Positions 4,459 through 21,055 of a stretch of DNA of 22,412 bases are shown one piece after another. The DNA lies in the IMG/VR virus record IMGVR_UViG_3300027833_001733, positions 1 through 22,412 of that record. The stretch is one strand, 5' to 3'. A program made the translations under genes and the position numbers. The DNA comes from a virus. The stretch's first letter is position 1. Each line of letters begins with the position of its first letter. The notes below the pieces were generated by a model. It did no database searches and was not told the origin of the DNA. It saw only the letters and a program-made list of their open reading frames with translations.

Positions 4459-4487
4459 ATTTTAACTTACATTGATTAGATTGTCAA
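4459..4487 (-). promoter_or_regulatory. Sigma70-type promoter before the Pol III alpha-like gene
   Basis: On the minus strand TTGACA (4482-4487) and TAAAAT (4459-4464) are separated by exactly 17 bases. The boxes overlap the 3' end of the 78-aa gene. The predicted start point falls at about 4452, the A of the first possible ATG, so a message from here would have almost no leader. This may serve the whole 2046-4452 cluster early in infection. It is a sequence match only. Confidence 0.6.
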
Positions 4488-4698
4488 GTCCTGATTCGCC
4501 ATTTTGTTCATTTTGTTGCGAATATGCTTTAGCTCGCCTTGCTCTATTTTCTTCTTGATACATATCTAGTACCGCAGATATTTGTTCTTGTACTTGAGGA
4601 TTATGCGTCATGAAGTATTTACGCTGAAGTTCAATAGATTTATTTTCTACCTCAGCATCACTTAGGTCTGCAAAACTGTCAACTAATGGATTAAACAT
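4462..4698 (-). CDS. Small protein of unknown function
   Basis: This 78-aa, mostly helical and hydrophilic protein starts MFNPLVDSFADLSDAEVENK. Residues 14-60 are predicted to form long amphipathic helices rich in Glu, Gln and Arg, and the C-terminus ends LDNLINVS. No catalytic or metal motif is present. The layout suggests a small assembly or accessory protein made with the virion genes, but this is inference. The start overlaps the stop of the 185-aa structural gene by one base (TAATG), indicating coupled translation from the late promoter at 5277. I do not recognise a named family. Confidence 0.7.
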   Translation of the reverse strand: MFNPLVDSFADLSDAEVENKSIELQRKYFMTHNPQVQEQISAVLDMYQEENRARRAKAYSQQNEQNGESGLDNLINVS

Positions 4699-5255
4699 TA
4701 ATCAAAAATACCATGGTCTAATGCGTGAACAGTAATGCCACCGTTAATTGTCCAGAAGTCGATAATAGTTGGATTAGTTGTAGATGCTACTGTGGTTGTT
4801 CCGCTCCAAGAACCATTTCCTTTAAACGCACCGCCACCGCTACTTGCCCAAGTAATTAGTCTTGAACTTCCGTCGCTTGTAAGTTGCATACGTATCTTGC
4901 CCATTACGCCACTTGCTGGCCAACCTGTTAAAGTAAGTGTAACATCAGCACCTGCTTGTAGTGTTTGATAATGTCCTGCTTCCCAATCAATCTCTTGATT
5001 TGAGGTAATATTACCTGCTGAGTTGACAGTTTCGGTATTCTTTTTAAATTCAGCTTCACTAATTACACTACCATTAAACTCGTTAGATGTATTTAATTTT
5101 GCTGTATTTGATTGTAAATCAGTAATTTCCGTTGCTGCTTGCTCTAAACCTACTTTAGTTACATTAAAATTTGTGCGAAAGCCTTGACTGTCGTTGTCTT
5201 GTCCTGCTACTGGAAACGCTGCGTCGAATCCTACTGTACTAATTGTACTTGCCAT
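4698..5255 (-). CDS. Small virion-type protein (fibre/baseplate accessory)
   Basis: This 185-aa protein is rich in Thr, Ser, Gly and Asn with no charged catalytic motif. The N-terminus carries QDNDSQGFRTNFNVTKVGLE (about 19-38), a variant of the N-terminal element seen in two other fibre genes here. A short coiled-coil-like stretch (ATEITDLQSNTAKL) follows. The second half is beta-rich with alternating hydrophobic residues (VTLTLTGWP, then KIRMQLTSDGSSRLITW and NPTIIDFWTINGG), like receptor-exposed or trimeric virion proteins. The late-type element at 5277-5284 and AGGAG before the ATG support late expression. The exact virion location is unknown. Confidence 0.7.
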   Translation of the reverse strand: MASTISTVGFDAAFPVAGQDNDSQGFRTNFNVTKVGLEQAATEITDLQSNTAKLNTSNEFNGSVISEAEFKKNTETVNSAGNITSNQEIDWEAGHYQTLQAGADVTLTLTGWPASGVMGKIRMQLTSDGSSRLITWASSGGGAFKGNGSWSGTTTVASTTNPTIIDFWTINGGITVHALDHGIFD

Positions 5256-5276: not shown

Positions 5277-5284
5277 TATTTATC
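5277..5284 (-). promoter_or_regulatory. Late-type promoter element GATAAATA
   Basis: Minus-strand GATAAATA, one base from the T4 late element TATAAATA and a fit to the NATAAATA form reported for T4-like cyanophages. Its near edge is 22 bases from the A of the ATG at 5255, and AGGAG lies between. It probably drives the 185-aa structural gene and the genes coupled to it. Confidence 0.7.
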
Positions 5285-5288
5285 TTGG

Positions 5289-8069
5289 TTAAGTATTAAA
5301 CTCGTAATTTGCGAATAACACATATTGTTCTTGTGTGAGGCCTTCGGAATTGTCTATTAGATATCTATCAATATCTAACTCGTATTGACTAAAATCAATA
5401 TTGTAGAAATCAATAGTATTAGCAATTATCTTTGCAGTTCCAGGTTTGCAATAGCATAACGGAATAGCAGTAACAAACCCTAGATCTGTTATTGTGTCTT
5501 CTTGTGATGACCTCATCCATAAAGGTAAAAAGTTTTTCTCAGTAGTTCCGATATCTCTAATAGCATCGCGCATGTGTGTCATATTTGATATATATCGAGT
5601 TGTGTCATTTGCACCGCTAGCAAGTATAGCATTACTATCTACTGTAATTGTGTTAGCCGGAAATGGTCTGTATTTGTTACTTTCAACAACACCTGGAGTA
5701 AACGATATATTTAAAGGGTAGCCGTCTCTATTAATAGCATCTAATACACTAGTTATTGGAATTTTATATAGCTGCTCTCTTCCATTAATATTTAATAAAT
5801 CTATCCACTTAACAATAACATCTCCTGATTCTCTAGTAGATACAGTAATCTCAGAAAAGTCACTTGCATAACTATTATTAATATCATTATATTTTGTACT
5901 ATTAACTAAAACTTTTTTAGAATTTTTAATTTTAATCTGTTTTGCAGTTTTTTGATTTTTTACTTTTGATACCATTGGATCAATTACATCTAAATATACT
6001 ACTTCGTATACTACTTCCTGTGTACCTAACTTTTTTGCAACAGCAGTTTTTACGCCACCTACTTTAAGATTTCGTCTTTTATGATTTTTAGCTGCGGCTG
6101 CAACAAAGTTTTCAATTGCTTTTGCTTCAATACCTGCATATGCAAGAATTTTGATTTTAGTTTGTACTCCAAAATTAGTATCATCTGGTCTATACAAATA
6201 TTCCGGCAAAAATATTTCTGCATTATTTACTAAGTTTATAAATGATGTTCGCTGTGTCTGTGTCATCATTGGTTGTAAAAATACATTACTATATTGCTTA
6301 TTATCAGGATCAGCTAACTTAATAGTAAACTCTCGTTCAATCGCACTAAATCCAAATTGATCTTGTGCTTTAATTGTAAATTTAAAGTTTCGATCAAATC
6401 CAGTAGTATTTCCGTCTAGTTGTAGTAGCTGACTGTCAAATACTGTAAGACCGGGTTGATTAGCAGTTCCAAAACTATTTACTTTGCCTATTATCTCGCC
6501 AGTTAATGATAACGTCAATCCTGGCGGCAACGTACCGGTAGTTTTTGTATAAATTAAATTAGCATTTGGTACAGTAGTAGTTGCGTTAACATTAAGTGTG
6601 CTGATATAATTAGCACTAAACGAACCTAAATTGCTCGGAGTAGTCCAGGCAATTGTTGATTCTACTTCGCCTAGTAATTTTATTACAAATGTTTTCTTAC
6701 TAATTGCATTTTCATTACCACTAATATTAATAGTACCAAAATTAATACTGTTACCTTTAGGAACTATAGTAAGTAGTGCTCTATTTAAAGTAAGAACATC
6801 GTACTCAATGTTACTTGTATTAATACTTGTAACACTATATACATTACCATCGAATGTGAATTCTTTACCTATTACATATTGTGAATATGTGTCAAATTTA
6901 CTTGTTTTAATTTGTGCAACACCCTGTGTCGCTGCTTCGTACATATACTCAATTAGTTGTACACTATTAATATCAGACGCAATACGTTGTGCAGCAATAG
7001 TAAATTTATATTCTTTTGTTACGGCTGGTTGATAAGGAACTCTACCTGCAATTTCCCCAGTTATCATATCTAGTTGCAATCCTGGCGGTAGTATACTAGG
7101 AGTATTATCATCATTAAGACTAGTTTGATAATAGCTAACTACTCCTGATAGTGTATTAGGATCAATAATATCGAGTATAAGTGTGACATAATTATTGGCC
7201 CGTCTATATCCAAAGTCTTTTGGGGTTAGCCATATTGGTACTCTAACATGTGTGTTGTCTGCACTGAATATACCAGTGCCAATTTGCATAACAGTAGTGT
7301 CTGCTCTAAAAAAATCATCTCCTACAACATACAGTTTAAATGTTCGACTTGCAATGCTGTCCCCGTCAGATACATTAACTATAAATTCGTAAAATCTATT
7401 AAGTTTCTTAGGCGACTGTGTTGGGGTAGATAGGTCATAAATTGTTGTGTCGAAGAAGAAACTATCAAACCCGTTATTACTCGGAACACTCCAATCGTAT
7501 GCACTAGTAGATCCGCTATCATACCCTGCATCGTCATAGAATCCTCGACCTGTTGATTTTTCAATTGCAAGAATTGGATCAACTACTCCGACTAATCTTC
7601 CATCTGTTGTCAATTGTATGCCTGGCGGTAATGTTCCTCCACTAGCTGGAATAAAATACTCAAGTACTTGTCCTGCATCAGTGTCAGTATCTATAACTTG
7701 TAGTTGGAAGTCGACTGGTGAACTATCTAATATGTAGTAGGTGTTATTATTACCTGCTGCTAATAAATCTGCAGGAGTTATCCATTGAGGAATATCTGCA
7801 CCATCAACAGTTATTTTAAATGTTCTATCGTTAATTTGTGAATTATAAGTTGCTCTAAGTACAAACGTACTAACTGTTTCTCTCGCAACTTCGATAGGCG
7901 TACCAACAATTGTGTTATTAAGTAATCTTAACCCACTAGGTAAACTACCACTTATTAGTGTAACAGTTGCTCCTGCTTGTGATAGTGGTAGTTGTATCGG
8001 TGCAATAGTAACTTGCTCTTGCAAAGTACCTAAACTGTCCCCGTTATTATTTGTCCAAAAGTTTGCCAT
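5289..8069 (-). CDS. Large virion protein with putative Ig (He_PIG-like) repeats
   Basis: This 926-aa protein has four copies of a signature of the form SG-LP-GL-L-x(4)-G-I-x-G. They lie at about 41-58 (GSLPSGLRLL), 144-162 (GGTLPPGIQL), 326-344 (ILPPGLQLDM) and 512-530 (GTLPPGLTLS). This matches putative Ig-like (He_PIG) domains, often linked to binding carbohydrate or cell surfaces. Each copy sits in a unit that also contains a strand like R-T-F-K-I/L (for example 82-86 and 242-246) and an aromatic I-x-W-x-T/L-P linker. The C-terminal 330 residues lack the repeat and probably form the attachment or tip part. It is most likely a tail-fibre or baseplate-associated adhesin. The late element at 8091-8098 precedes it. 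Confidence 0.8.
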   Translation of the reverse strand: MANFWTNNNGDSLGTLQEQVTIAPIQLPLSQAGATVTLISGSLPSGLRLLNNTIVGTPIEVARETVSTFVLRATYNSQINDRTFKITVDGADIPQWITPADLLAAGNNNTYYILDSSPVDFQLQVIDTDTDAGQVLEYFIPASGGTLPPGIQLTTDGRLVGVVDPILAIEKSTGRGFYDDAGYDSGSTSAYDWSVPSNNGFDSFFFDTTIYDLSTPTQSPKKLNRFYEFIVNVSDGDSIASRTFKLYVVGDDFFRADTTVMQIGTGIFSADNTHVRVPIWLTPKDFGYRRANNYVTLILDIIDPNTLSGVVSYYQTSLNDDNTPSILPPGLQLDMITGEIAGRVPYQPAVTKEYKFTIAAQRIASDINSVQLIEYMYEAATQGVAQIKTSKFDTYSQYVIGKEFTFDGNVYSVTSINTSNIEYDVLTLNRALLTIVPKGNSINFGTINISGNENAISKKTFVIKLLGEVESTIAWTTPSNLGSFSANYISTLNVNATTTVPNANLIYTKTTGTLPPGLTLSLTGEIIGKVNSFGTANQPGLTVFDSQLLQLDGNTTGFDRNFKFTIKAQDQFGFSAIEREFTIKLADPDNKQYSNVFLQPMMTQTQRTSFINLVNNAEIFLPEYLYRPDDTNFGVQTKIKILAYAGIEAKAIENFVAAAAKNHKRRNLKVGGVKTAVAKKLGTQEVVYEVVYLDVIDPMVSKVKNQKTAKQIKIKNSKKVLVNSTKYNDINNSYASDFSEITVSTRESGDVIVKWIDLLNINGREQLYKIPITSVLDAINRDGYPLNISFTPGVVESNKYRPFPANTITVDSNAILASGANDTTRYISNMTHMRDAIRDIGTTEKNFLPLWMRSSQEDTITDLGFVTAIPLCYCKPGTAKIIANTIDFYNIDFSQYELDIDRYLIDNSEGLTQEQYVLFANYEFNT

Positions 8070-8090
8070 ATATCTATTCCCTATATAGCA

Positions 8091-8098
8091 TATTTATC
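8091..8098 (-). promoter_or_regulatory. Late-type promoter element GATAAATA
   Basis: Minus-strand GATAAATA just upstream of the 926-aa protein. The near edge is 22 bases from the A of the start codon at 8069, the same spacing as at 5277, 11768 and 20278. An AGGGA ribosome-binding sequence follows it. Confidence 0.7.
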
Positions 8099-8103
8099 GA
8101 AAA

Positions 8104-8820
8104 TTACAGTGTACCGTAATCTGAGACTATTGCTGCTGGTGATCCTACTGATCCGTAATCTATAGTGGCGGCATGAAACAATAATTCAATACCTGTTGTT
8201 AAATTGATTGCTGCTTCACCGTAATCCGTACCATTAATAACTCTAGCAAGTTCAGATACATTTTCACCGTTAACTGTTCCATTAAGTGATCCAGTAATTG
8301 AAGCAGCATTAAGTGTAGCAGCCTGTAGTGAAATTGCGTCTAATGATCCGACATTATTGATATTAAATCCATTAGCATCAAGTGCAGCACCTAGTGACGG
8401 ATTAGTATCTAATGATACTAAGTCAGTAGTATCAAGTGCTACAATAATATTGTTTCCAGATAAAGACGTAGTAATACTCTGTCCACCATTAACGCCAAAC
8501 TGTCTATTTGCGCCAGATAAACTTAATGTATTTCCATCTGTCCTAACAGTAATACTACCGTTATTTGTAATAGTAATACTTGTTCCATCAGCAACAAGTG
8601 ACATGTTGTCTCCTGCTACCAAGCTTCTAAAGTTTAACGAAGATCCTTCTTTGGTATAAAATACCCCTGTACCTGTACCTAAGTTGGTAGCATTATTCTG
8701 TGGTACAACTCTTGCATCTAATTCAGCAATGCTGTTGTTAACTTTAACAAACGCCTGTCTTAGATCATCACCTGTTCCGTCGTTTGCTATGTCACCTACA
8801 TTTATTCTACTTATTGTCAT
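8104..8820 (-). CDS. Fibre-like virion protein with NDGTGD N-terminal element
   Basis: This 238-aa protein starts MTISRINVGDIANDGTGDDL and continues R-x2-F-x-K-x-N, an N-terminal element (5-28) shared with the 2696-aa fibre. The rest is low in charge and rich in Asn, Gly, Thr, Ser and Leu. It has short beta repeats such as VAGDNMSLVADGTSITITNN (about 68-87) and NPSLGAALDANGFNINNVGS. The latter form (N-P-x-L-G-x2-L-D-x2-G) also appears in the giant fibre (NPTLGGHVDASNFGI). Together these suggest a trimeric beta-structured fibre segment or hinge. The start has AGGAAAG upstream. Only a weak late-type element (GGTAAATA, 8872-8879) lies before it, so it may be cotranscribed with the protease. Confidence 0.75.
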   Translation of the reverse strand: MTISRINVGDIANDGTGDDLRQAFVKVNNSIAELDARVVPQNNATNLGTGTGVFYTKEGSSLNFRSLVAGDNMSLVADGTSITITNNGSITVRTDGNTLSLSGANRQFGVNGGQSITTSLSGNNIIVALDTTDLVSLDTNPSLGAALDANGFNINNVGSLDAISLQAATLNAASITGSLNGTVNGENVSELARVINGTDYGEAAINLTTGIELLFHAATIDYGSVGSPAAIVSDYGTL

Positions 8821-8871
8821 TTTTCTTTCCTAAGTTATTAAGCTATTACTCCACCAACGCCGCTATACTAC

Positions 8872-8879
8872 TATTTACC
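8872..8879 (-). promoter_or_regulatory. Weak late-type element GGTAAATA
   Basis: Minus-strand GGTAAATA overlapping the protease stop codon, 52 bases before the ATG at 8820. It deviates from NATAAATA at one position and does not have the 22-base spacing of the other sites, so it may be chance or a weak promoter. Confidence 0.3.
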
Positions 8880-10623
8880 CACGCTTGCGTATTCTTGTAC
8901 GAGGATAGATAGCACCAGTTGTAGGCTTATTGTTAACATCTTTGTTATATGTGTTGAACGCCATATTGCCTGATGTGGCTCTGTGATTCTTCCACAATGC
9001 TATTCTATCAATGCTGCTACCGTCTATGCTTGTTCTTGTGTCTGTGTCTACATCTATTGCGTCTGCTGTGTCTACCATTAATCCTGTTACAGCATTGTCG
9101 TGTAAATATGTTCTTGCTTGTGCGTGTGTAAGGTTAGGATATATTTCTGCTAAACAAGCTAACATACCTGTTACGAACGGCGCACTATAACTTGTTCCTG
9201 ATCCAGACTGTACTGTGTCCCAGTTTGATGTATTTGCTTCTTGTCCTGGATACGGAACACCAAACATAATAGTGCCACTTTTTCCTGCGCCAAAACAACC
9301 AGTTCCTGCGGCATATACATCAATACCTGGTCCCCAATTGCTGAAACCTGATTTGCCTTGATTTGTGTTGCCGCCTAAAGCACCTGCACAAATAGCACCA
9401 TTGAACGTATAAGTGGTGCCACGATGATAGTAATATCTAAATGGATAATTACCGCCAAAGTAGTAATCTTTAAAGGAATATGCCCCCTCACCAACAATAT
9501 AGTTATCGTAGTTGTCGCCATCTGACACATCAATGTATCTGTTGTCGTTGCCTGCTGAAGCTACAATAATAATTCCATCTGTTATAGCATCTTGCATATC
9601 ACTTAGTAGGACTTGCGAATTTACACTAAATTGTTGATTGTCTGTCCACTCAGGGTCACTTGCATATATACCTCTTGCATTTAGTTCTGCGGCTGATAGA
9701 TCATTGCCTGTGCCGTTGTCTGTAGTTACACCCTGGAAGTGAATTAAAGCGGCCCCGCCGCCTACTAGGGTCTGTGTTCCCAAACTAATATTAACAATAG
9801 TAGGATTTTTTCTACCTGTTGCTGGATTTATACTTTTGTTTGCGTGAAACTCTCTGATGTAGGCATAAGTTCTATCAGTAACATCGCCGCCTGACTTTGA
9901 ACGTTCGTAAGTCTTGTCAAACATGTATATGTTTGCATCATTGGCAAGTCCGTATAGTGTGCCTGCCGCATAACTTGTGACTGCTGTAGGATGATCGTCT
10001 TCTGCGCCATAGTTGTCACGAGCGTCTGCGTTGCTGTATGTATAGTTAGTACCACCTGTGATTGTGTTGTAGTGTTGACCCCAGTTGTAGTCCACTACTC
10101 TACTTGAATAGTCTGCGTGGTCGCTTAATGTTTTTATTTCAACAATAACAATGTCTACATTTTTACCACTTGCTGAATATGTTACACTGTCATCAACATA
10201 CCTGTCTGATAATGAAGCATTTGATCCCCAATTGGTTCTGTTTGCGTCTTCACTGTGTCTTAGTATGCCCCAATTTTTGTGATCAACAGTATACTTCATT
10301 CCTGTTTGCCCATTTGCTTTTGTAAACGGCGCTGAACCGCTTGGAACACCTTTGTCAAACCTGCCTGTAAAAGTACTTGCTGGGGTATCTATGTTTCTAT
10401 CTAAAACACTTTGTGGTATAACTTGTTCAACTCTGTCGTCATCGGCTACTTCCATTGCTTCTTCCATAGTAAGCATATAGCCGGTGGTTCTTGAAGTTGG
10501 GCGTCTTGCGGCACACTCTACTTTACGATCTGGAATAGTTAGAGCACCACCTGGTGTTTCCATATCCTCATAGAAAGCAGTAATATCTTCACCATGCTTT
10601 AGTGTTACTTGGAACAATTCCAT
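8875..10623 (-). CDS. Subtilisin-like serine protease (S8), atypical active site
   Basis: This 582-aa protein contains an S8 core after a roughly 150-residue N-terminal region; residues 1-80 may be a propeptide. The Ser motif is GTSYSAPFVTGMLA with S478, the oxyanion Asn motif is VASAGN with N359, and the His motif is DDHPTAVTSYAAG with H211. The usual HGTHVAG is altered to HPTAVTS. Where the catalytic Asp of the V-x-V-I-D-T/S-G strand is expected, the sequence reads IVIVEIKTLSDH, giving E162. Function could be maturation of neighbouring fibres or degradation of host surface protein (inference). It lies between two fibre genes, and its ATG is one base after the stop of the 373-aa fibre, so it belongs to the late fibre operon. 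Confidence 0.85.
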   Translation of the reverse strand: MELFQVTLKHGEDITAFYEDMETPGGALTIPDRKVECAARRPTSRTTGYMLTMEEAMEVADDDRVEQVIPQSVLDRNIDTPASTFTGRFDKGVPSGSAPFTKANGQTGMKYTVDHKNWGILRHSEDANRTNWGSNASLSDRYVDDSVTYSASGKNVDIVIVEIKTLSDHADYSSRVVDYNWGQHYNTITGGTNYTYSNADARDNYGAEDDHPTAVTSYAAGTLYGLANDANIYMFDKTYERSKSGGDVTDRTYAYIREFHANKSINPATGRKNPTIVNISLGTQTLVGGGAALIHFQGVTTDNGTGNDLSAAELNARGIYASDPEWTDNQQFSVNSQVLLSDMQDAITDGIIIVASAGNDNRYIDVSDGDNYDNYIVGEGAYSFKDYYFGGNYPFRYYYHRGTTYTFNGAICAGALGGNTNQGKSGFSNWGPGIDVYAAGTGCFGAGKSGTIMFGVPYPGQEANTSNWDTVQSGSGTSYSAPFVTGMLACLAEIYPNLTHAQARTYLHDNAVTGLMVDTADAIDVDTDTRTSIDGSSIDRIALWKNHRATSGNMAFNTYNKDVNNKPTTGAIYPRTRIRKRG

Positions 10624-10624
10624 G

Positions 10625-11746
10625 TTACGCCTCCAGTTGTAGTATGTTTACGTCTACTTGTACAGTACCTGTGCTACCGCTTTTGTTTGTAACTCTACAT
10701 GGTATATTTGTAGTTGGCGAACTTTCTAAGTTAAATCCATAAGCACCTGGACTAATAATAACAGTTTCTGCGCCTGTGGTAATTACTTCAGCAATAACAC
10801 CTGCGTCTGATGTTGGATCAATACCCTCTGCCCTTGCCGCATCTGCTGTTCTTGTTGCAGCATTCACATACAATCTTACACGGGCCGCTTTGTCTGTTGT
10901 GATAGCCATTAATGTGTATGATTTGAATCCTGTAATATCCAAGTCTGCTTGTGCGGCATCAGCTAAACTGCTTGTTGTGCCTGTTGCTGTGCTTCTGCTT
11001 TGTAAGCCTGAACCACCTCCTCCACTTATTCCAGTAAGGCCACTACCGTCTCCAACAAATGCTGTTGCAGTAACAGTGCCTTGAATATAAGCATTTTTAA
11101 ATCGTACTGTGTTACTACCTAAGTCCCACAAATTGTGTTGATTGGTATTAGGGATAACATTGCCTCTAATGGTTCCGTCTAAATTTACTGCTCCTAATAT
11201 ACTGTCAATCATCACAGTTGAATCATCTGCAAATACACTACCAACTAAGTCGCCAGTATTATTAACATCAATAGTAACTAGTCCATTCTGTATATCTGAT
11301 ACTGTTAAGTAACCTACATCATTTATAAATGAACTAATAACTGCACCTACTTGTATAGCGTCAGTTATTCCGTAATCGGCTACTGTTGTAGGTGTTGCTG
11401 TTATGTCTGCAAACGCAACAGTAGTAAGATACCCTACGTTATTAGTAAGTAGTCCTATATTAGAGCCTGGCACTAATACATTTAAATCATTAGTTAAATC
11501 ACTAAATGCAGTAGGTTTATTAATTAAATCATTAAAACTTCCTGATACTGCAACAGCGGCAAGTTCTGTGCCACCTTTCATAATACTTGCAGCACTTAGT
11601 ACTCCGCCAGCAATGGTGCCACTTGCAGTAACATCAGTTACGCCTATGATACTATTACCTGTAAGTTGTAGGTTATCTCCACTTGGTATTTCTTTTAATT
11701 TGTTACCATCTGTTGTATCGACTATTAGTGGATATCTATTTGCCAT
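10625..11746 (-). CDS. Tail-fibre protein with PTT-YGITDA-type repeats
   Basis: This 373-aa protein has typical tail-fibre repeats: SGSFNDLINKPTAFSDLTND (about 69-88), NVGYLTT, then FADITATPTTVADYGITDAI (about 112-131), and a second VGYLTVSDIQNG. A VGDGSGLTGISGGGGSG linker (about 232-248) precedes a C-terminal domain of about 110 residues (TGFKSYTLMAITTDKAARVR to the end). That domain looks like a compact beta sandwich, a candidate receptor-binding or tip domain. A shaft-then-head layout is inferred. The late element at 11768-11775 and GAGG before the ATG support late expression. Its stop lies one base from the protease ATG, so fibre and protease would be co-translated. Confidence 0.82.
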   Translation of the reverse strand: MANRYPLIVDTTDGNKLKEIPSGDNLQLTGNSIIGVTDVTASGTIAGGVLSAASIMKGGTELAAVAVSGSFNDLINKPTAFSDLTNDLNVLVPGSNIGLLTNNVGYLTTVAFADITATPTTVADYGITDAIQVGAVISSFINDVGYLTVSDIQNGLVTIDVNNTGDLVGSVFADDSTVMIDSILGAVNLDGTIRGNVIPNTNQHNLWDLGSNTVRFKNAYIQGTVTATAFVGDGSGLTGISGGGGSGLQSRSTATGTTSSLADAAQADLDITGFKSYTLMAITTDKAARVRLYVNAATRTADAARAEGIDPTSDAGVIAEVITTGAETVIISPGAYGFNLESSPTTNIPCRVTNKSGSTGTVQVDVNILQLEA

Positions 11747-11767
11747 CTGTGTTTTCCTCGCTTAGTG

Positions 11768-11775
11768 TATTTATT
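11768..11775 (-). promoter_or_regulatory. Late-type promoter element AATAAATA
   Basis: Minus-strand AATAAATA between the giant fibre and the 373-aa fibre. The near edge is 22 bases from the A of the ATG at 11746, with GAGGAAAA in between as the ribosome-binding site. It would drive the fibre-protease pair. Confidence 0.7.
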
Positions 11776-11786
11776 TGCTTTGTCAT

Positions 11787-12180
11787 TTATACTCTGCCCA
11801 CTACTGCATTAACAGTGCCACGTTCTGTAGTATCTTTAGTACCAATAGCTTTACCAATCACACTTCCAACTTTTGGATCGTCATCAACTATAGCATAACC
11901 TGGGATCGAACTTGCTACTAGCATATCGCCTTTAGCAACTGTACCAATAACATTTACTGGAACTTTACCTTGTAGTGCAACTAGTGTTTGTATACCCGGA
12001 CACTCACTGTTCATTGTATATGCACTTTGATCACTTACTACACCAGCAATGCGTCTTGTTTTGTGCTCTGTACTAATAGTAACATCTTTGTCACCGCCAA
12101 ACACAACAACTGTACCAACAGCATATTCAGTATCACCTTCGTAATACTCCGCCAAATCCGCATAAGTTGCTTCGAAGCGT
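11787..12180 (-). other. C-terminal YADLAEYY domain of the giant fibre (Peptidase_G2-like)
   Basis: The last roughly 130 residues read ATYADLAEYY, then YAVGTVVVFGGDKDVT, IAGVVSDQSAYTMNS, GKVPVNVIGTVAKGDMLVAS and VGSVIGKAIGT. This conserved C-terminal block is widespread in phage fibres and appendages. It resembles the Peptidase_G2 / intramolecular chaperone class, which aids trimer folding and can cleave itself off. Whether this copy cleaves cannot be told from sequence alone. Confidence 0.6.
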
Positions 12181-15100
12181 GAGTTGGTAGTTAAACTCCA
12201 TCTACCTGTGATAGTACCTGTAGTTGTTGCTGCGCCTGTACTCAACGTTCTTACTGCTGTTAATCCACCTACTGTTAATAATTGTGTACTTGGATTGTAC
12301 CTAAGTTGAGCATTGTCTGTATCAATGTACGGTCTTTGATATCCTGTCCCGTTTGCAGCACTAAACAGTACTTGGTAGTTTACATTACCATTTGTCTCGT
12401 CAACATTAATGTTATTAGCATTTGTTGCTGTTGATGCTGATGTTGCTGATGTTGCTGTATCAGCATTACCTGTTAAATCACCAACAACATCACCTGTAAA
12501 TCCGACACTACTTATTTTACCTCGTACACTACCGCCAGTGATAAACGTAATAATATCACTACCGCCATCTGCAAATCCGGTACCGTCGCCAATACCAATA
12601 CCAGTACTACTAGAACCTTTTTCGTTTGCTGCTTCTATAAATGATGTGTATACCCAACGTGATGATATTGCACTTGTTTCTACGCCAGCACCTGCTCCGC
12701 CAACAGTACCATAGTCACTGTTAGTTTGGAAAGTACTTTCAGTAGGAGCAATTGCCATGTCACCAACTTTAATATTTCCGCCTGTATTTATTTGCGGCTT
12801 GCTTGCTCCACTTGCTGTTAAGATCGTGCCTTGTGCAGGTGTCTTAAATGATAGCGTACCTGAAGTTTCACTTAGTATTTTATATGCAGAGTTACCACCA
12901 ATGATCAACGAAGTAGCTTGTAAACTACCATCATTTCTGCGCTTTGCAATACTAGTATTTGTATTATCGTATGATATATCACTAATGCTATATGTGCCAG
13001 TGCCTGTTTTAACTAGTACTTCACCTGGATTTCCTACAGTAGTACCTGACGAGAAGTAAGGAAGTATAGATGCAAAGTCGCCATCAGCTAGACCGCCACC
13101 TTCGTCAATTACTGTACTAAATGCAATTGCACTTGTATCACCTGCGCCAGTTGCGCTTCTACCAATAACAGTATCAGTTGCTAGTGTTGGCAAATCTGCA
13201 AAATCAACATCATTTGCCTTTAGTGTGACCCAGCCGTTTGTTACACTAAAGTCATCACTATCAAAGCTTGCTAGACCTAAGTCTGCTTGCACAATTCCTG
13301 TAGCGTTTGCTCTAGTAGAAGCAGCAGTCATTGCAAGTTTGCTTTGGACAATTGCTGCTGCGTTATTAACATCACTGTTAATAATAGCTTGCGGCTCAAT
13401 CTGCAAGTTAACTTGTGTATTTGTTGAATCACGTGACACAGTAATGTTGATATCACTTGTAGTTGATTCAACAGCGTTAGTAAATTCATCTATTGGATTT
13501 TCTATTACTACTGCTGTAGTAGATCCTGGCGACCCAACAACTCCGTTATTAATTGGACTTGCTGTTGTGCTAAATTCACCTGCTGTTGTTAGTGTGTAAG
13601 AAATAATTCTAATATTTTGATTCAATACTTGGTCAAATCGCGATTCTAATGCAACAACTGTACCTTGTGCTGTGCCATCAGTAATAGTTCCACCTTCTGT
13701 AAACAGTCCTGGTGTTTCAGGTTCTACTACTAATCTCCGTAAGCCGGTAGGAACAAGTAACTGTTTTGCTTTATTAGCAGGAACAACATCATGTATTGTA
13801 ATGTTTCTTAAGTCGTCAAGTTCGTCATATGCTTTAGTAGCTTGCACAACATAATCTTTTGTTGCTGCATCATTATCATCAGTAGGATCAAGTAAGTTTT
13901 TAATTTGCTTACTATTAGCATTTAAGTTAGCCTCTAATGGAGTAGATCCGTCTAGTGCAAAGAAGCCAGGAGCAAATCTATTAGTACCTGTTAGTTGCGC
14001 ACTACCATTATGTCCTAGTCTACGACTTACATAATTAGCAATTGCTTTTTCTGTAGGTACTGCTGTGTCTGATAAGTCAATAAACAATTCATCATTTGAA
14101 AACTCATCAATTGTAACACCTTCTTTAAATCCTAATGAAGCCGCTCTTGAAATACCAACATCGCCTGCGAAAGTAATACTACCTGTTGATTGATCTACAA
14201 CAAAATACTTACCTACTCTAAAGAAGCCATCGTTATCTGAACTGATAAAGAATACTCTACCTTTTCTACGCTCCCATACTTGTGCCTTACTTGCATCATC
14301 AGCGTCTGCATAAGCACCTGCTTTAGAAGCTGATCCGCCAATTGGCGCACCCAACAATACATTTGGATAGTTACTTGTGTTAAAGCCACCAGTTCCAATT
14401 TCTGTAAAGTCGTGTCCTGTTGCACGTAGCAATGATATAGCAATTGTGATTTCAGCAGTAGAACTTGCTGGCAATCCGCAATGTATGTCTCTTGCTTCTG
14501 TTGGGACTAATCTAATACCTGCTGTTGCTACATTATTAATGTCAGTTCCTGTAACAAATGCTGTTTGGATGTACCAAACACTGTCTGAAGTAACCCAGCG
14601 ACCACCACTTGTGTATGTTGCATACGCTGTACCATCTAGTGCAGCACTTAAACCTATATCAGTATAAAGTGCAAATGTGTTAGTAGTTACATTGCCTACG
14701 TAATAACTAGTTCCATTTAATAGTATACTGCCGCCAATTGAATCAAACTCAACAATTTCACCATTTGTTAGGTTGTGATTTGCACTTGTAATTACTACTG
14801 GGCTTGCACTTGTTACATTAGTAATAGCACCAAACGTTATCGGACCGTAGTTAATAACTTTCTGTGTTCTGCCGCCGTATGCAAATTCTAAACCACCTGT
14901 ATAACCAGCATCACCTGGTTTCTTAATCGTTTGATTAGCTGCATCGGTTGATTGTTGTACTATGCGTACTCCGTCAACAGCAGATAATTTTTCTACTGCT
15001 AAGTATGTATCGCCTACTGATCCGCCTAATGTGCCGCCGCCTGTTGGAGCACTGACACCTCTGTTTTGGTAATCAATACTTGCTGCTACATATGCAAAGT

Positions 15101-18100
15101 CATTATCAAATACTGCTTTAATCTGCGAACCTGTTAGATCTTGACTTTGGTCATTTTTAGAAGTAAACCCAGTACTTCTGTATGTAACTGTGTCACTTTC
15201 GTCAAAGTTAATAGCAGTACTTGGACGCTCAGTAATATCTTGTGTGTCAACACCTTCGAATATGATGTTCTCACCGTGTCTATATTCAATTAAATCACGA
15301 TGTGCAAGACTACTTTGCAATGTAGCAAAGTAATCAAGATTTGATGCAGATTCTTGTATTGTTAATCTATAAACATCATTACTGAATGTTCCTGCAAAGT
15401 TAGTGAATACAGTAGTTACAGTAAAGGTTAAATCATTTGCGCCATCACTGCCTCCGACATCTGCACCAGATACTACAATAGTATTACCATTTGCATATCC
15501 GCTGCCTACGTTTGAAATTGTTGTTAATGTAGCTACACCGCCAGCAATTGTGACAGTAAATTGTGCACCTGTACCTAAACCATTAGTTGATTTTTGACCA
15601 ACCAGTGTGTACACTCCGTTAGTACCTTCAGTTCCTGAAGTAAACGTTGCTGCTTCTATACCAGTGACTACAACAGAACCAGCATCGCCGGCTATGCCAT
15701 CGTTGTTTGGATCTGACAATGCTTGCACGTTAGTAATTTTATAGTTCAATCCACCAACTACGCCGCCATGATCGATATAGATATAAGCGTTTTTCATTGG
15801 GGGAGTTTTAAAGTCGTATACTGTAATAGTAGTATCGTCTGTTACGTTAGTGTATCCACCATATGTAAATGCCTTAACACTCTGTGTCATGGAGTTTAAT
15901 GTAGTAACTTGATCTGGAATTTCGTTTGGATCAGCACCTTCAGCAACTAAGCCAAAGTTACCGTAACCGTTAGATCCGTTAAGTGATCTAATTTCTGAAC
16001 CGTTACTTGCATAGTATGCTGCATGACAGTAATATGTAAACATACTAACCATCTCAGAGAACGCACCGTTATTAGTTACAAGGCCATACGCTAAGTCGTT
16101 AATCTGTGTAAAGTCGTTACCAAGTATACTTCTGTTACCAGCACTTTGTATGAAGATATCTTGATTATAATCATCTGGATCGTGTCCACCGGCACCTACA
16201 AGATCTGTTCCACTAAAGTTCCAACCATTACCGCTGTTACTTCCTGGATCAAGATATATAATAGCTCTACCTAATCCACTATCGTAGTTTGATATAGCAT
16301 TAACTTGATAACGCTGTCCTCGATAGTAAAACGGTGCAGGAAGTTCTGGGATTCTTAATTTAAGTCCTTGGCCTACTCCGGCTACATCTTGTGATTCAAC
16401 GTATAATGTAAATGCATTTAGTGCAACACTTCCGTTTGCATCAGTGTAGTTACCTGAGTTACCTTGAACTCGCATAGGCATGTTACCAGCAAACGCATCA
16501 ACATACATACCGCCTCGGAATGATTTCTTGTTTTCAGCTTTTGAGAAACTTGATGCTGTTTGAATATAAGGTGACTTAGTTAATACTTGACCTTCTGGAT
16601 CAAGTACACACATAAATCCACCGTGACCTTGTACTGTTAAGTTTCGAATAATAGTAGCATCGTCCATTAAGAACACATCCATCAAGTCTGCATCGTTGCG
16701 TTTTGGTGGATTGTAATTTGCATTAAATGCAAATGCTACAATGTCAATTAGATCGCCTACTATGGTTGTACTACTTGAAACTGATTTCCATATGAGAGTA
16801 TTAGTTAGCTGACCAAATGTAGCTGATAATACATCAGTATCTTCATCTGCTGCTGTTGAAACATGTGTGCGTAATGCTCTATAAAATAATGATCCTTTTT
16901 TAACAAAATCACCTTGCTTATAAGATACATTAGCTGCCCAATCTGCTTCTACAACTCCTGCACTGATATCTGGATCAAAGTTAGTACCTGCATTCTTTGT
17001 TGGCGCTACACCTATTAGTAGTTGTGCAACAAGTGTTGATATATGACCAATTGCCGCAGCAGTTTCAGTTTCTTGTCCTGCAACTGCACCTGCATAGTAT
17101 TCACCTTGATTTTGTAGGGCAAACTCTTTACCACCTGCTAGAATATCTTTCACAACGCCGTCAATGATTAAACCAGTGTCACGTCTACATTTTGTTTCAT
17201 TATATACTAATGATGGATAAGTGTCATTAATAAAATAAATTACTTCATCTTGTATAAATTCTTTATTACTTTTAACAATATTACTAGCTGCTACATACTT
17301 ACCTAGGTTAGTTATAGGAAGTCCGACATTAACTGGTTTAGTGTTATCAGTTAAGTAATGGTATCCAAAGAAGCCTTGTGTTACGCCAGTTTGATTAACA
17401 AACGGAGTACCAGTTGTTGTTAAAGTTAATCCGTCAAACTCTGCATCTCTATAGAAATATGTATTTGCATATGAACTTTGTGATACTCTGCGTTTCGGTC
17501 TTACAATAACTCGTCTAAATTCGTCACCTTTTAATGATACGTTTTTAGTCAGCTTAATTGGATAGTCTTCTTCGTATATGCCTGTTTCGACCATAATTGT
17601 AAGCTGTTTTGCTTTTACAAAGTTACCTACTTCAATTTCTTCGCCAGGTTCAAACGGTGTAGTTTTAAGCGGCTGCATAAAGAATGTAGTTGAGTTAGTA
17701 TCTTGCGTAAATGTAATTATACGTCCTAGTGCGCCACTGCGCTTACCTCTAAGTACTTTACCTGGAATTGCATCAGTATTAGCTGGATCTGTTTGATCTA
17801 ATTGCCCACCTGTACTATTTGTAAGTTCTAATGTGTATCTGTTACCAAACGCAATATCAGCACCTGCTTCAATACCGTTTGCAATAATAGTATTAATTAA
17901 TGCAACATTGTTTGATACTGCCGCTGCGCCATTTGGCTCTGCGCCACCTGATGATCCGTCCCAGGCTAGTGTTTGGGTAAAGTCTTGTGGGAATTTAGAT
18001 TGATATCTTAGACCAATCTTTCCACTTACAAATGGAGTATATGCACTGTTGTTAAACGGTATTGATAATGCTTCGTCAGTAAATAATTCAAAAGTACTAA

Positions 18101-19877
18101 CATCTACAACTTTTACATATGCAAACTGACCTTCAATTTCTGTCATACCTGTAACAGAATCAAACACTACAATATTTTTATTAGCTAACCCGTGTGCTGC
18201 CGACGTAGTAACTAATGACGGAGTGTCGCCTGCGCTAACAACTATTCCTGATATAGATTTTTCTTGATATAATTTTTTCTGTAATACTGTACTAGTTATT
18301 AGATTGCCTAAAAAGCTAAAACTATCAGTAGTCTGTTCTAACTGAGACGAAATAGCAATTCTGCCACTTACACTAGAATAATATCTTTCACCTGCAGTTC
18401 TTGATAGGTAGTTAGCATTGTTGCCTCGTTCAGCATCAATTCTTAAACTATCAATAATTAATCCTAGGTCACGTTCGCATGTTGCAACTGTATACTGAAA
18501 ATCTGGATACTTAAATGCAAGGTATCCAGTAACTTCTGCAATTAAGAATTTCTTGTTTAATCTTAAAGTTGCACTTGTAACTACGTTAACTGCATTTTCT
18601 ACACCTTGACTTACTACTTCAGCTGGTGTTACAAATCCTGAATGAGTAAGTGTTTGAAAATATGGACCCGGCTCTTCTGGAGCAGTTTTAATTATTTCTG
18701 CTGCTCGTTTTGCTGCTGCATTAATAGTACGGAAGGCATATGTATTCGACGAACCTTCTTTACCATTAGGTACACCTTGCATACTATCATCGCCTATAGT
18801 ACTTACAAATAATACTTCTGGACTTGAGTATGCAGTATTATCTACATAATATTTTGACGCTGCTTCTAAATCGTCTGGACCATTTGGAGTACCGTCCCCT
18901 GCTAAGTCACCTGGATGATCACTTAGGTACAATGGGCCTTCCATTGTGTCGCCTTGGCGTCTTGTTACACTTTCTCTCGGCACAGCAACATTATTTAAGA
19001 AATTACCTGCTAGTGTACTGTCGTAACCTTCATCGACTATCTTATGTGCATCTAATGCACCAATAGTGCCTGACACAGTAATTTTATTACTTGCTGCTTC
19101 TACTGGATTACCAGTCTGTGCTTCAGATTGTGTTGCAAATAATGATAACTGATCATCGTTTACATAGCGAATATAATATGTTGTTCCCGACACAAGATTA
19201 GTTGGATCAACGTCTTCAGCTGTAAATATAAATGCTGTACCGTTTGCGCCACTCTCGTAACCGTGTCCGGATATAAACAAGTTTCCAGAAACATAACTAG
19301 TAATATTTAATGTGTATTGTGTAATAGTTGTAGGTTCTGTAGAGATTCGTAATGGGAGCCCGGTTGAAATATATCGTCTATCAGCATAGCCTTTAGTTAT
19401 AACTAAGTCGTCAATTGTGTAATTAGTACTTCGACCTAACTGTGAGTTTATTGCAGTAGCAGTTCCGTCCGATATAGAAACTCCAGCAATACCAAAATTT
19501 GACGCATCTACATGCCCACCAAGCGTAGGATTAACATTATCATCTACTAGCGCACTAAAGGATGTTGATAAAACAATTTTCCCTGGAACACTTACAACAT
19601 CAACAGTAATACTATCAGGCGTTCCTGAATTTATATCACTATCACTACCAATTTCACTATATCTAAGTGCAGTACCTGATGCGTTTGTAGTAATTATTTT
19701 ACCTGACTCAATAGTATCAGGTGTATCGCCTAATGTAGTAAAGCCTATTGTGCCGCCTTGGCCAAATACTGCATACAGTTCTTGAAAATTTTCATTAGTT
19801 TTGCGAAACGACTCGCGTATACTATCACCAGTGCCGTCATTACCTTCTACACCGATATCTACATCTTGCTTTGCCAT
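11787..19877 (-). CDS. Giant tail-fibre protein (2696 aa)
   Basis: This 8-kb gene is more than a third of the window. The N-terminus has EGNDGTGDSIRESFRKTNEN (10-29), the element shared with the 238-aa protein. Further on are a DDSMQGVPNGKEGSSNTYAF segment and a beta-helix-like TIMVETGIYEEDYPI region. There are two copies of an NK-x-F, YP, C-x-RD-x-GLIID module (centred on C467 and C897). A later segment reads SAGNRSILGNDFTQINDLAY, then FTYYCHAAYYASNGSEIRSL and GLVAEGADPNE, a pattern I associate with long fibres of T4-like cyanophages. The last roughly 125 residues form a YADLAEYY domain. It is probably the main host-recognition fibre. GGAG precedes the ATG, but no late element does, so it is probably read with the iscA-like gene. 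Confidence 0.88.
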   Translation of the reverse strand: MAKQDVDIGVEGNDGTGDSIRESFRKTNENFQELYAVFGQGGTIGFTTLGDTPDTIESGKIITTNASGTALRYSEIGSDSDINSGTPDSITVDVVSVPGKIVLSTSFSALVDDNVNPTLGGHVDASNFGIAGVSISDGTATAINSQLGRSTNYTIDDLVITKGYADRRYISTGLPLRISTEPTTITQYTLNITSYVSGNLFISGHGYESGANGTAFIFTAEDVDPTNLVSGTTYYIRYVNDDQLSLFATQSEAQTGNPVEAASNKITVSGTIGALDAHKIVDEGYDSTLAGNFLNNVAVPRESVTRRQGDTMEGPLYLSDHPGDLAGDGTPNGPDDLEAASKYYVDNTAYSSPEVLFVSTIGDDSMQGVPNGKEGSSNTYAFRTINAAAKRAAEIIKTAPEEPGPYFQTLTHSGFVTPAEVVSQGVENAVNVVTSATLRLNKKFLIAEVTGYLAFKYPDFQYTVATCERDLGLIIDSLRIDAERGNNANYLSRTAGERYYSSVSGRIAISSQLEQTTDSFSFLGNLITSTVLQKKLYQEKSISGIVVSAGDTPSLVTTSAAHGLANKNIVVFDSVTGMTEIEGQFAYVKVVDVSTFELFTDEALSIPFNNSAYTPFVSGKIGLRYQSKFPQDFTQTLAWDGSSGGAEPNGAAAVSNNVALINTIIANGIEAGADIAFGNRYTLELTNSTGGQLDQTDPANTDAIPGKVLRGKRSGALGRIITFTQDTNSTTFFMQPLKTTPFEPGEEIEVGNFVKAKQLTIMVETGIYEEDYPIKLTKNVSLKGDEFRRVIVRPKRRVSQSSYANTYFYRDAEFDGLTLTTTGTPFVNQTGVTQGFFGYHYLTDNTKPVNVGLPITNLGKYVAASNIVKSNKEFIQDEVIYFINDTYPSLVYNETKCRRDTGLIIDGVVKDILAGGKEFALQNQGEYYAGAVAGQETETAAAIGHISTLVAQLLIGVAPTKNAGTNFDPDISAGVVEADWAANVSYKQGDFVKKGSLFYRALRTHVSTAADEDTDVLSATFGQLTNTLIWKSVSSSTTIVGDLIDIVAFAFNANYNPPKRNDADLMDVFLMDDATIIRNLTVQGHGGFMCVLDPEGQVLTKSPYIQTASSFSKAENKKSFRGGMYVDAFAGNMPMRVQGNSGNYTDANGSVALNAFTLYVESQDVAGVGQGLKLRIPELPAPFYYRGQRYQVNAISNYDSGLGRAIIYLDPGSNSGNGWNFSGTDLVGAGGHDPDDYNQDIFIQSAGNRSILGNDFTQINDLAYGLVTNNGAFSEMVSMFTYYCHAAYYASNGSEIRSLNGSNGYGNFGLVAEGADPNEIPDQVTTLNSMTQSVKAFTYGGYTNVTDDTTITVYDFKTPPMKNAYIYIDHGGVVGGLNYKITNVQALSDPNNDGIAGDAGSVVVTGIEAATFTSGTEGTNGVYTLVGQKSTNGLGTGAQFTVTIAGGVATLTTISNVGSGYANGNTIVVSGADVGGSDGANDLTFTVTTVFTNFAGTFSNDVYRLTIQESASNLDYFATLQSSLAHRDLIEYRHGENIIFEGVDTQDITERPSTAINFDESDTVTYRSTGFTSKNDQSQDLTGSQIKAVFDNDFAYVAASIDYQNRGVSAPTGGGTLGGSVGDTYLAVEKLSAVDGVRIVQQSTDAANQTIKKPGDAGYTGGLEFAYGGRTQKVINYGPITFGAITNVTSASPVVITSANHNLTNGEIVEFDSIGGSILLNGTSYYVGNVTTNTFALYTDIGLSAALDGTAYATYTSGGRWVTSDSVWYIQTAFVTGTDINNVATAGIRLVPTEARDIHCGLPASSTAEITIAISLLRATGHDFTEIGTGGFNTSNYPNVLLGAPIGGSASKAGAYADADDASKAQVWERRKGRVFFISSDNDGFFRVGKYFVVDQSTGSITFAGDVGISRAASLGFKEGVTIDEFSNDELFIDLSDTAVPTEKAIANYVSRRLGHNGSAQLTGTNRFAPGFFALDGSTPLEANLNANSKQIKNLLDPTDDNDAATKDYVVQATKAYDELDDLRNITIHDVVPANKAKQLLVPTGLRRLVVEPETPGLFTEGGTITDGTAQGTVVALESRFDQVLNQNIRIISYTLTTAGEFSTTASPINNGVVGSPGSTTAVVIENPIDEFTNAVESTTSDINITVSRDSTNTQVNLQIEPQAIINSDVNNAAAIVQSKLAMTAASTRANATGIVQADLGLASFDSDDFSVTNGWVTLKANDVDFADLPTLATDTVIGRSATGAGDTSAIAFSTVIDEGGGLADGDFASILPYFSSGTTVGNPGEVLVKTGTGTYSISDISYDNTNTSIAKRRNDGSLQATSLIIGGNSAYKILSETSGTLSFKTPAQGTILTASGASKPQINTGGNIKVGDMAIAPTESTFQTNSDYGTVGGAGAGVETSAISSRWVYTSFIEAANEKGSSSTGIGIGDGTGFADGGSDIITFITGGSVRGKISSVGFTGDVVGDLTGNADTATSATSASTATNANNINVDETNGNVNYQVLFSAANGTGYQRPYIDTDNAQLRYNPSTQLLTVGGLTAVRTLSTGAATTTGTITGRWSLTTNSRFEATYADLAEYYEGDTEYAVGTVVVFGGDKDVTISTEHKTRRIAGVVSDQSAYTMNSECPGIQTLVALQGKVPVNVIGTVAKGDMLVASSIPGYAIVDDDPKVGSVIGKAIGTKDTTERGTVNAVVGRV
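17073..18557 (-). repeat. Two diverged copies of an NK-x-F / C-x-RD-x-GLIID module in the giant fibre
   Basis: Copy 1 starts at N441 (NKKFLIAEVTGYLAFKYP, then CERDLGLIID with C467, ending in YYSSVSG). Copy 2 starts at N871 (NKEFIQDEVIYFINDTYP, then CRRDTGLIID with C897, ending in YYAGAVAG). The distance from the first Asn to the Cys is identical in both (26 residues). About 430 residues separate them. This looks like an ancient internal duplication of a structural domain within the fibre shaft. Confidence 0.7.
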
Positions 19878-19893
19878 CTGTCTTTGCTCCGTT

Positions 19894-20256
19894 TTATATT
19901 GCTGGTATTGCTAATTTGTCTACATCAAAATTTACACTAACGCCGCATCCACATGCTGATTGTGCATTAGGGTTGTTAACTTCAAAAGTTGCACCCATTA
20001 TATCTTTAACATAATCTATTTCTGTTCCTATCATGAACATTACTGCTGTTGCACCAACTACAAATTTACCTGTAGTTGAATCAATAACTACATCATGTTT
20101 TTCTACATCGGCTTCTGTTGCTACAGTTGTCCAATCATATTCAAATCCTGCACAGCCGCCACCTTTTAAGTCAAGGCTAACTGCATAACAATCGTTATCT
20201 TTGCATATTGTGTCAATTTGTGCTTTTGCCGTGTCTGTTAGTGTAACTATACTCAT
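19894..20256 (-). CDS. A-type iron-sulfur carrier (IscA/HesB/ErpA family)
   Basis: This 120-aa protein has the family layout. It opens with TLTDTAKAQID, then has GGGCAGFEY carrying the first conserved Cys (C35). Strands and FMIGTEIDYVKD follow, and the C-terminus has NNPNAQSACGCG with the Cys pair C102/C104. A-type carriers hold an Fe-S cluster or iron and pass it to target proteins. All three ligands are present and the length is normal (107-120), so it should work. Extra cysteines (C18, C23) are seen. It lies 16 bases upstream of the giant fibre and has the late element at 20278-20285, so it would be made late, with the virion proteins. AAGAAGGA precedes the ATG. Confidence 0.92.
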   Translation of the reverse strand: MSIVTLTDTAKAQIDTICKDNDCYAVSLDLKGGGCAGFEYDWTTVATEADVEKHDVVIDSTTGKFVVGATAVMFMIGTEIDYVKDIMGATFEVNNPNAQSACGCGVSVNFDVDKLAIPAI

Positions 20257-20270
20257 GAATAATCCTTCTT

Positions 20271-20300
20271 ATGATAGTATTTATCGTTGCGTTTTATAAT
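20271..20300 (+). promoter_or_regulatory. Possible sigma70-type promoter for the plus-strand Zn-ribbon gene
   Basis: Plus-strand TATAAT (20295-20300) is a perfect -10 box. The best -35 candidate is ATGATA (20271-20276) with an 18-base spacer, four of six matches. Transcription would start near 20307, upstream of the ATG at 20320. It lies across the late element of the opposite strand. Confidence 0.45.
20278..20285 (-). promoter_or_regulatory. Late-type promoter element GATAAATA
   Basis: Minus-strand GATAAATA before the IscA-like gene. The near edge is again 22 bases from the A of the ATG at 20256, with AAGAAGGA between. It probably also drives the 2696-aa fibre, which has no element of its own. 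Confidence 0.7.
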
Positions 20301-20319
20301 CTTAATGTTAAATATACTT

Positions 20320-20607
20320 ATGTTTATAAGAGAATTTAAAAAGCAGACCCGGCATGTGCGCACTAGCAAAACAGGCAAGGTTCATGCCTATAAGCGTGAA
20401 CAAACTGTGTGTGTATTTAGGTGTGATAATTGCGATGCAGAGTTTGAGCGTGCTAGAGGTAGTATGGATCCGAAGCGCCTAAGTAATTCCTACTTTCACG
20501 TATGTAAGAACTGTGATAGTAAGGTTTTTGCTCAAAAGAAAGGCGTAGAACAGAAGCAAAAATGGAATATGACTGCTAGTAGTTCTACGCCTATTGGTAA
20601 ACTTTAG
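20320..20607 (+). CDS. Small Zn-ribbon protein, unknown function (only plus-strand gene)
   Basis: This 95-aa basic protein starts MFIREFKKQTRHVRTSKTGK. It has two CxxC knuckles, CDNCDAEF and CKNCDSKVF, 27 residues apart from first Cys to first Cys, enough to bind one zinc. Between them lies RARGSMDPKRLSNSYFHVC. The C-terminus reads FAQKKGVEQKQKW. The pattern resembles small Zn-ribbon proteins of T4-like marine phages, some near HNH-type nucleases, but no HNH catalytic set is complete here. Nucleic-acid binding is likely (basic, zinc). The ATG at 20320 is preferred over upstream in-frame starts (TTG 20287, ATG 20305) because they lie within or before the predicted promoter start point. No clear Shine-Dalgarno sequence is seen. 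Confidence 0.75.
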   Translation: MFIREFKKQTRHVRTSKTGKVHAYKREQTVCVFRCDNCDAEFERARGSMDPKRLSNSYFHVCKNCDSKVFAQKKGVEQKQKWNMTASSSTPIGKL

Positions 20608-20768
20608 TCTTTAGACCAAATAGCCCATGCACCGTACGCAATTGCTGCATACGCTGCTAGCTTTGCAAATGGTCCTGCAATTAGTACAACAACGCCAACA
20701 GCAATTAATGCCGCCCCGTTCCATGATGTACGTTCTTCTAATCTTTCTTTAATCCAATTCTTAATCAT
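20604..20768 (-). CDS. 54-aa small membrane protein
   Basis: This short ORF starts MIKNWIKERLEERTSWNGAA with a charged amphipathic N-terminus. It is followed by a hydrophobic stretch (about residues 19-36, ALIAVGVVVLIAGPFAKL) and a second one (AAYAAIAYGAWAIW, 38-51), then KD. Two short membrane helices with a hairpin are likely. The ATG overlaps the upstream gene's stop by four bases (ATGA). The stop overlaps the convergent plus-strand gene's last four bases. The tight coupling and membrane-like composition argue that it is real despite its size. Function is unknown; an inner-membrane role during infection is possible. Confidence 0.75.
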   Translation of the reverse strand: MIKNWIKERLEERTSWNGAALIAVGVVVLIAGPFAKLAAYAAIAYGAWAIWSKD

Positions 20769-21055
20769 TGATTTCTCCCTATCATTCCTTTGACTTGTTC
20801 AAGTGTAGCTTCGACTCGAGTTAGCTTACGTTCTAGGACGGTTATAGCTGCTCGCTGTTTTCTTGACTGCTCTTCCAAACTTTGTACATAACGCTGTGTA
20901 GGAATTTGCTGCTCTAAACCGTTCTCAGCAATCATAGTAAAATGATCAGCACCTTGTGCTTTTAAACCACCGCTAACACGATTTGGATTCTTATCCGAAC
21001 TCGAGCTCTCTGCTGTTGGTTTCTTGCGACTGTACATTTTCGCTAAGTAATTCAT
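20765..21055 (-). CDS. Coiled-coil protein of unknown function
   Basis: This 96-aa protein starts MNYLAKMYSRKKPTAESSSS. The first third is Ser/Lys-rich and probably disordered. The middle has SGGLKAQGADHFTMIAENGL. From about residue 54 to the end it forms a heptad-rich helix (QRYVQSLEEQSRKQRAAITV, then LERKLTRVEATLEQVKGMIG), so oligomerisation is likely. No enzyme motif is present. An in-frame ATG at 21088 is possible, but the ATG at 21055 has AAAGGAA at the right distance. The gene overlaps the 3' end of uvsE by 65 bases, and its stop overlaps the start of the 54-aa membrane protein, suggesting a coupled trio. Confidence 0.75.
   Translation of the reverse strand: MNYLAKMYSRKKPTAESSSSDKNPNRVSGGLKAQGADHFTMIAENGLEQQIPTQRYVQSLEEQSRKQRAAITVLERKLTRVEATLEQVKGMIGRNQ

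Follow-up and report, generated by a model that had tools for sequence, protein, structure and literature searches.

Late promoters of phage T4, which depend on gp55, gp33 and gp45, consist of an 8-bp TATA element (TATAAATA) with a degenerate first base, have no -35 requirement and lie ahead of structural genes; a review of T4 late genes numbers the motif from -13, that is, -13 to -6 (PMC2988020). Late promoters with the consensus NATAAATA are known from the cyanomyoviruses S-PM2 and Syn9 (PMC2984593). In bacteria, TA-led genes carry a -10-type element about 10–12 bp before the start codon, have no Shine-Dalgarno (SD) sequence and are interpreted as leaderless (PMC3160421), and the AR9 paper notes that transcripts of phages frequently lack a leader. 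We found no report of leaderless T4-type late genes in the openly licensed literature, which does not by itself prove their absence elsewhere.

The motifs analysed here, in a 22.4-kb stretch of viral DNA (the window) and in related marine phages, share with T4 the TATA element, its degenerate first base, the lack of a -35 requirement and the position ahead of structural genes, and gp55 homologs occur in several relatives. With the cyanomyoviruses they share both the consensus and the kinds of genes served. They differ from these systems in a large, putatively leaderless class with the motif 4–5 bases before the start codon, found in the marine relatives and in Pelagibacter phage HTVC008M but essentially absent from T4 (0 of 44 motif-ATG pairs), Syn9 (0 of 32) and S-PM2 (1 of 46). 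This class resembles the bacterial TA-led genes in the placement of the promoter element and in having no SD; unlike them, it draws on two kinds of element, a phage late motif and a sigma70 -10, and a single phage gene family can switch between leadered and leaderless members.

Late-type motifs in the window

Genes on the minus strand of the window include clamp-loader, Pol III alpha NTPase-like and tail-fibre-like genes and others encoding UvdE, a peptidase of type S8 and a protein of Fe-S biosynthesis (Table 1). A megablast search of phage records with the window as query gave no match, and neither did Pfam and PHROG searches with the 185-aa ORF at 4698..5255. ATAAATA is present in six copies, all on the minus (coding) strand. 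This number is not in excess over chance, since about 10 would be expected; what is non-random is their position, with five of the six lying 17–21 bases ahead of a gene start. The initial annotation had reported four sites at one identical distance from the ATG, each with a ribosome site in its leader. Our recount agrees, giving exactly 21 intervening bases at each (22 as a coordinate difference) and SD-like stretches of AGGAG, AGGGA, GAGGA and AAGGA at 5277, 8091, 11768 and 20278, respectively. All four sites are real, but the list had missed two more, a leadered one at 21073 and one at 12785 within a long ORF. Initiation at the in-frame ATG downstream of the latter would yield a 323-aa C-terminal product. 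As at T4-type late promoters, NATAAATA motifs stand just upstream of late and structural genes in the window, in its relatives and in HTVC008M, and by sequence and placement the window sites appear to behave as promoters of this type.

Table 1. Putative promoters and associated genes in the window.
Feature	Position	Strand	Placement or basis
Late-type promoter GATAAATA	5277..5284	-	21 bases before ATG 5255; motif kept in orthologs
Late-type promoter GATAAATA	8091..8098	-	21 bases before ATG 8069
Late-type promoter AATAAATA	11768..11775	-	21 bases before ATG 11746
Late-type promoter GATAAATA	20278..20285	-	21 bases before ATG 20256
Fifth late-type promoter TATAAATA	21073..21080	-	17 bases before ATG 21055; SD AAAGGA; within end of UvdE gene
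Late motif AATAAATA inside 2696-aa ORF	12785..12792	-	26 bases before in-frame ATG 12758
Variant motif TTAAATA, candidate leaderless promoter	20308..20314	+	5 bases before ATG 20320
Sigma70-type TTGACA-N17-TAAAAT, candidate leaderless	4459..4487	-	6 bases before ATG 4452
185-aa protein, DNA polymerase III alpha NTPase-domain match, candidate leaderless	3895..4452	-	domain match
185-aa ORF, SD-leadered late gene, beside putative structural genes	4698..5255	-	ORF list
926-aa ORF, Ig-like (He_PIG) domain, SD-leadered	5289..8069	-	domain match
373-aa tail-fibre-like ORF, SD-leadered	10625..11746	-	homology
120-aa Fe-S biosynthesis (HesB/IscA-type) protein, SD-leadered	19894..20256	-	PF01521
95-aa ORF with CxxC, divergent from HesB gene, candidate leaderless late gene	20320..20607	+	ortholog upstreams
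96-aa ORF (MNYLAKMY family), leadered in window	20765..21055	-	ortholog comparison

Two distance classes in related phages

Motif-to-ATG distances were collected from 140 related loci and from whole contigs (12 marine contigs and HTVC008M), taking start codons from mechanical ORF calls and not from protein N-termini. Both histograms are bimodal, with a hump at about 15–30 bases, a sharp spike at 4–5 and few sites at 6–13. The distribution in the relatives is thus far from flat, as the initial annotation had expected, which argues that leader geometry is constrained; its further idea of a single constrained length is not supported (see below), and the second, discrete class at 4–5 bases was beyond its view. 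In the 12 marine contigs and HTVC008M, 84 sites fall at 4–5, 24 at 6–13 and 122 (deduplicated) at 14–26. Twenty other A5T2 7-mers score between 2 and 21 at 4–5 bases as against 84, the 21 belonging to the motif shifted by one base. ATAAATA itself is present in 526 copies in marine contigs G001–G015 and is rarer there than nearly all 7-mers of the same composition (about 750–1334), as if it were avoided away from gene starts.

The two classes differ in more than distance. An SD-like word precedes 107 of 122 genes in the 14–26 class and 7 of 79 in the 4–5 class, and 76 of 79 of the latter have a pyrimidine immediately ahead of the ATG, compared with a background of 45%. In leadered genes, YR steps are enriched at motif+4/+5 (59 of 122, with 24–35 at other positions). 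The upper limit of the leadered class is soft, some spacers reaching 30–40 bases, and its shortest spacers leave a leader of only about 9–10 nt. A minor group of eight sites has a spacer of 8 and thus a predicted leader of roughly 3 nt; it includes the HTVC008M head-tail adaptor, with examples at L192:19714 and L195:9429 (HTVC008M records 59714 and 109429) and in G001.

A putative leaderless class of late genes

With the late motif at -13 to -6, the first base of the ATG falls at +1 when the spacer is 5, and the pyrimidine that almost always precedes this A supplies the YR step expected of a start point. Position therefore suggests that these promoters place +1 on the start codon. The reading would fail if the nearest ATG were spurious and the true start codon lay downstream or upstream, as mechanical calling of ORFs could allow. 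However, a downstream ATG with an SD is found within 25 codons in only 2 of 79 cases and an upstream SD-led start in 2 of 79, leadered orthologs begin at the same codon as their 4–5-class relatives, and so regular a pyrimidine at -1 is unexpected at spurious ATGs. We regard misplaced starts as improbable.

Assignment to one class or the other varies among orthologs. Those of window gene 21055 have the motif at 4–5 bases in 13 cases, at 6–15 in none and at 16–26 in 31. At least nine gene families contain both classes, including those of head-tail adaptor Ad2, virion structural proteins and fibre-like proteins, and the PHROGs of 4–5-class products comprise tail tube, head-tail adaptor Ad2 and virion structural proteins.

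Variant motifs and sigma70-type promoters

Three variants of the motif are also abundant at 4–5 bases: GTAAATA (23), CTAAATA (17) and TTAAATA (14), where 2–3 would be expected from neighbouring spacings. As the base at -1 is a pyrimidine in 51 of these 54, the late motif of the leaderless class appears to tolerate any base at -12. One such variant precedes the plus-strand gene 20320 of the window. Its orthologs have TAAATA at 4–5 bases in 50 of 53 cases, T at -1 in 50 of 53 and an SD-like word in 3 of 53. Between this gene and the divergent HesB gene lies TTTTATAATCTTAATG (window 20292–20307), which looks like a -10 box without an evident -35 or SD to go with it. Of the 53 intergenic regions compared among orthologs, about 48 carry it in near-invariant form.

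Sigma70-type promoters show a corresponding arrangement. In the marine contigs, -10 elements with a good -35 have a peak of 20 hits at 6 bases from the ATG; 11 shuffled -35 hexamers give 0–3 hits, and the twelfth is TTGACA shifted by one. With a sigma70-type spacing of 6, transcription would likewise begin with the A of the AUG. The layout TTGACA-N17-TAAAAT-N6-ATG at window gene 4452 is kept in nearly all of 21 ortholog upstream regions, although the conserved stretch is partly coding: the promoter overlaps the last codons of the upstream ORF and its stop, the TAA in TAAAAT. The window thus holds two leaderless candidates, gene 20320 and the DNA-polymerase-like gene 4452. Elsewhere in the window, a 178-aa exoribonuclease-like gene has what looks like an ordinary SD-led sigma70-type promoter, with TTGACT-N17-TATAAT (1983–2038), a 26-base spacer and AAGGAG.

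The sequence ahead of the ATG is often AT-rich in AT-rich phages, and the element could conceivably be a translation enhancer, such as an S1 site, in mRNA that comes from upstream. This too is improbable: 7-mers of the same composition have no such peak, the leadered class has the same 7-mer as its promoter, and sigma70 -35/-10 pairs, which are promoter elements, peak equivalently with +1 at the ATG.

We therefore favour, with a probability of about 0.8, a reading in which late promoters of these marine T4-like phages provide either a short, SD-bearing leader or no leader, the 21-base spacers of the window being draws from the leadered class. From motif positions, distance classes, the presence or absence of SDs, the pyrimidine/A step, class switching and the sigma70 parallel, we infer that gp55-RNA polymerase begins transcription there and that ribosomes translate messages that lack a leader. 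Late RNA polymerase would most likely start five or six bases beyond the motif. A promoter 14–30 bases upstream of the ATG would then give a leader of about 10–25 nt with just enough room for an SD, the SD-to-ATG distance being the fixed quantity, and a promoter 4–5 bases upstream would start transcription at the A of the AUG. Evolution would bring the start codon to coincide with the start point or shift it downstream by enough to make room for an SD; spacers of 6–13 are depleted presumably because the resulting leader cannot accommodate an SD and the AUG is no longer 5′-terminal. It is likely, with somewhat less assurance than the reading just given, that in some T4-like phages infecting marine heterotrophs the late regulon is divided in this way between SD-led and leaderless mRNAs, with one promoter type serving two routes of initiation, individual structural genes switching class in the course of evolution with almost nothing in between, and sigma70-type promoters using the leaderless option too.

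Is the 21-base spacing itself selected?

The initial annotation had seen in the four equal distances selection for one leader length, and the coincidence is indeed unusual: the chance of four equal spacers among the five leadered sites is 0.0009 when drawn from the spacers of relatives and 0.0037 if the spacer of each gene is drawn from its own orthologs, although both values were computed after the pattern had been noticed and the comparison was thus picked post hoc. Sister contig 3300025701_000598 likewise has three spacers at 21, the full set being 20, 21, 21, 21 and 17. Nevertheless, the proposal is not borne out. The same five genes have spacers of 20, 19, 18, 21 and 17 in sister contig 3300017697_002075, and the fifth site of the window itself stands at 17. 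Spacers with the exact motif range over 15–24 in orthologs of gp5255, 15–23 for gp8069, 17–25 for gp11746 and 15–22 for hesB, outside which falls one distant hesB-like gene with a spacer of 5. Close orthologs lie 1–3 bases apart, with the changes between SD and ATG (19, 21 and 22 for gp8069). For gp11746 the closest ortholog (L042, 84%) has a spacer of 18 as against 21; its motif and SD are almost the same, and the difference falls between SD and ATG. Orthologs thus appear to have largely refuted a need of the phage for exactly 21 bases, which we consider very unlikely, and a promoter set with leaders of one fixed length is rejected on the same ortholog and sister-contig spacers.

What is held constant lies closer to the gene. 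At 111 leadered sites the distance from the GG of the SD to the ATG peaks at 8 (38 sites) and is 6–10 in 90, compared with a broad range of 5–17 from motif to GG; the ribosome-site distance is therefore fixed and the promoter distance merely bounded. The four 21-base spacers of the window are a near-coincidence, drawn from the loose leadered range. They may not even correspond to identical leaders, as reading the YR steps puts the start at base 5 after the motif at 5277, 8091 and 11768 (predicted leader of 17 nt) and at base 6 at 20278 (16 nt).

Distribution among phages and possible host link

In HTVC008M the motif stands exactly 5 bases before the ATG of nine genes, structural ones included. 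Where checked, the annotated starts agree, namely for the DNA end protector (18916), tail tube cap (19456), tape measure (16007), gp25-type baseplate wedge (31132) and wedge initiator (49760). Since this phage is cultured, the idea is directly testable, and orthologs that switch class make these phages a natural experiment on the conditions under which a ribosome-binding leader is dispensable to a virus. Class switching also bears on whether the host translation machinery decides the need for a leader. If the reading is correct, the classic T4 late-promoter system is able to drive leaderless messages, and gene-start calling would change for abundant marine T4-like phages.

A leaderless late class as a general trait of T4-like phages and cyanophages is rejected on the counts for T4, Syn9 and S-PM2 given above. 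By pattern count, matches at 4–5 bases do not exceed the 8–9-base control in P-SSM2, S-WAM2, phiM12, Ochrobactrum phage OC, Atu_ph07, Phosso, VH7D, Aeromonas phage 25, pf16 and Campylobacter phage F368. PA5oct gives a weak signal, with four ORFs at 4–5 bases and 9 versus 2 matches in the pattern count. Homologs of gp55 were found in HTVC008M, G003, G005, G006, PA5oct, Syn9 and S-PM2; the same search found none in G001, G002 or G004, or in the window, which is a fragment of 22 kb. A simple rule based on alphaproteobacterial hosts fails, as rhizobial and Ochrobactrum phages are without the 4–5 class. In one SAR11 genome, a strong SD precedes just 9% of first-ATG ORFs of at least 100 aa, and in the same genome (L422–L441) TATAAT-like boxes 5–7 bases before the ATG are about twofold in excess (34 versus about 16). 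This scarcity of SDs together with -10-like boxes makes a host link plausible, and is suggestive only.
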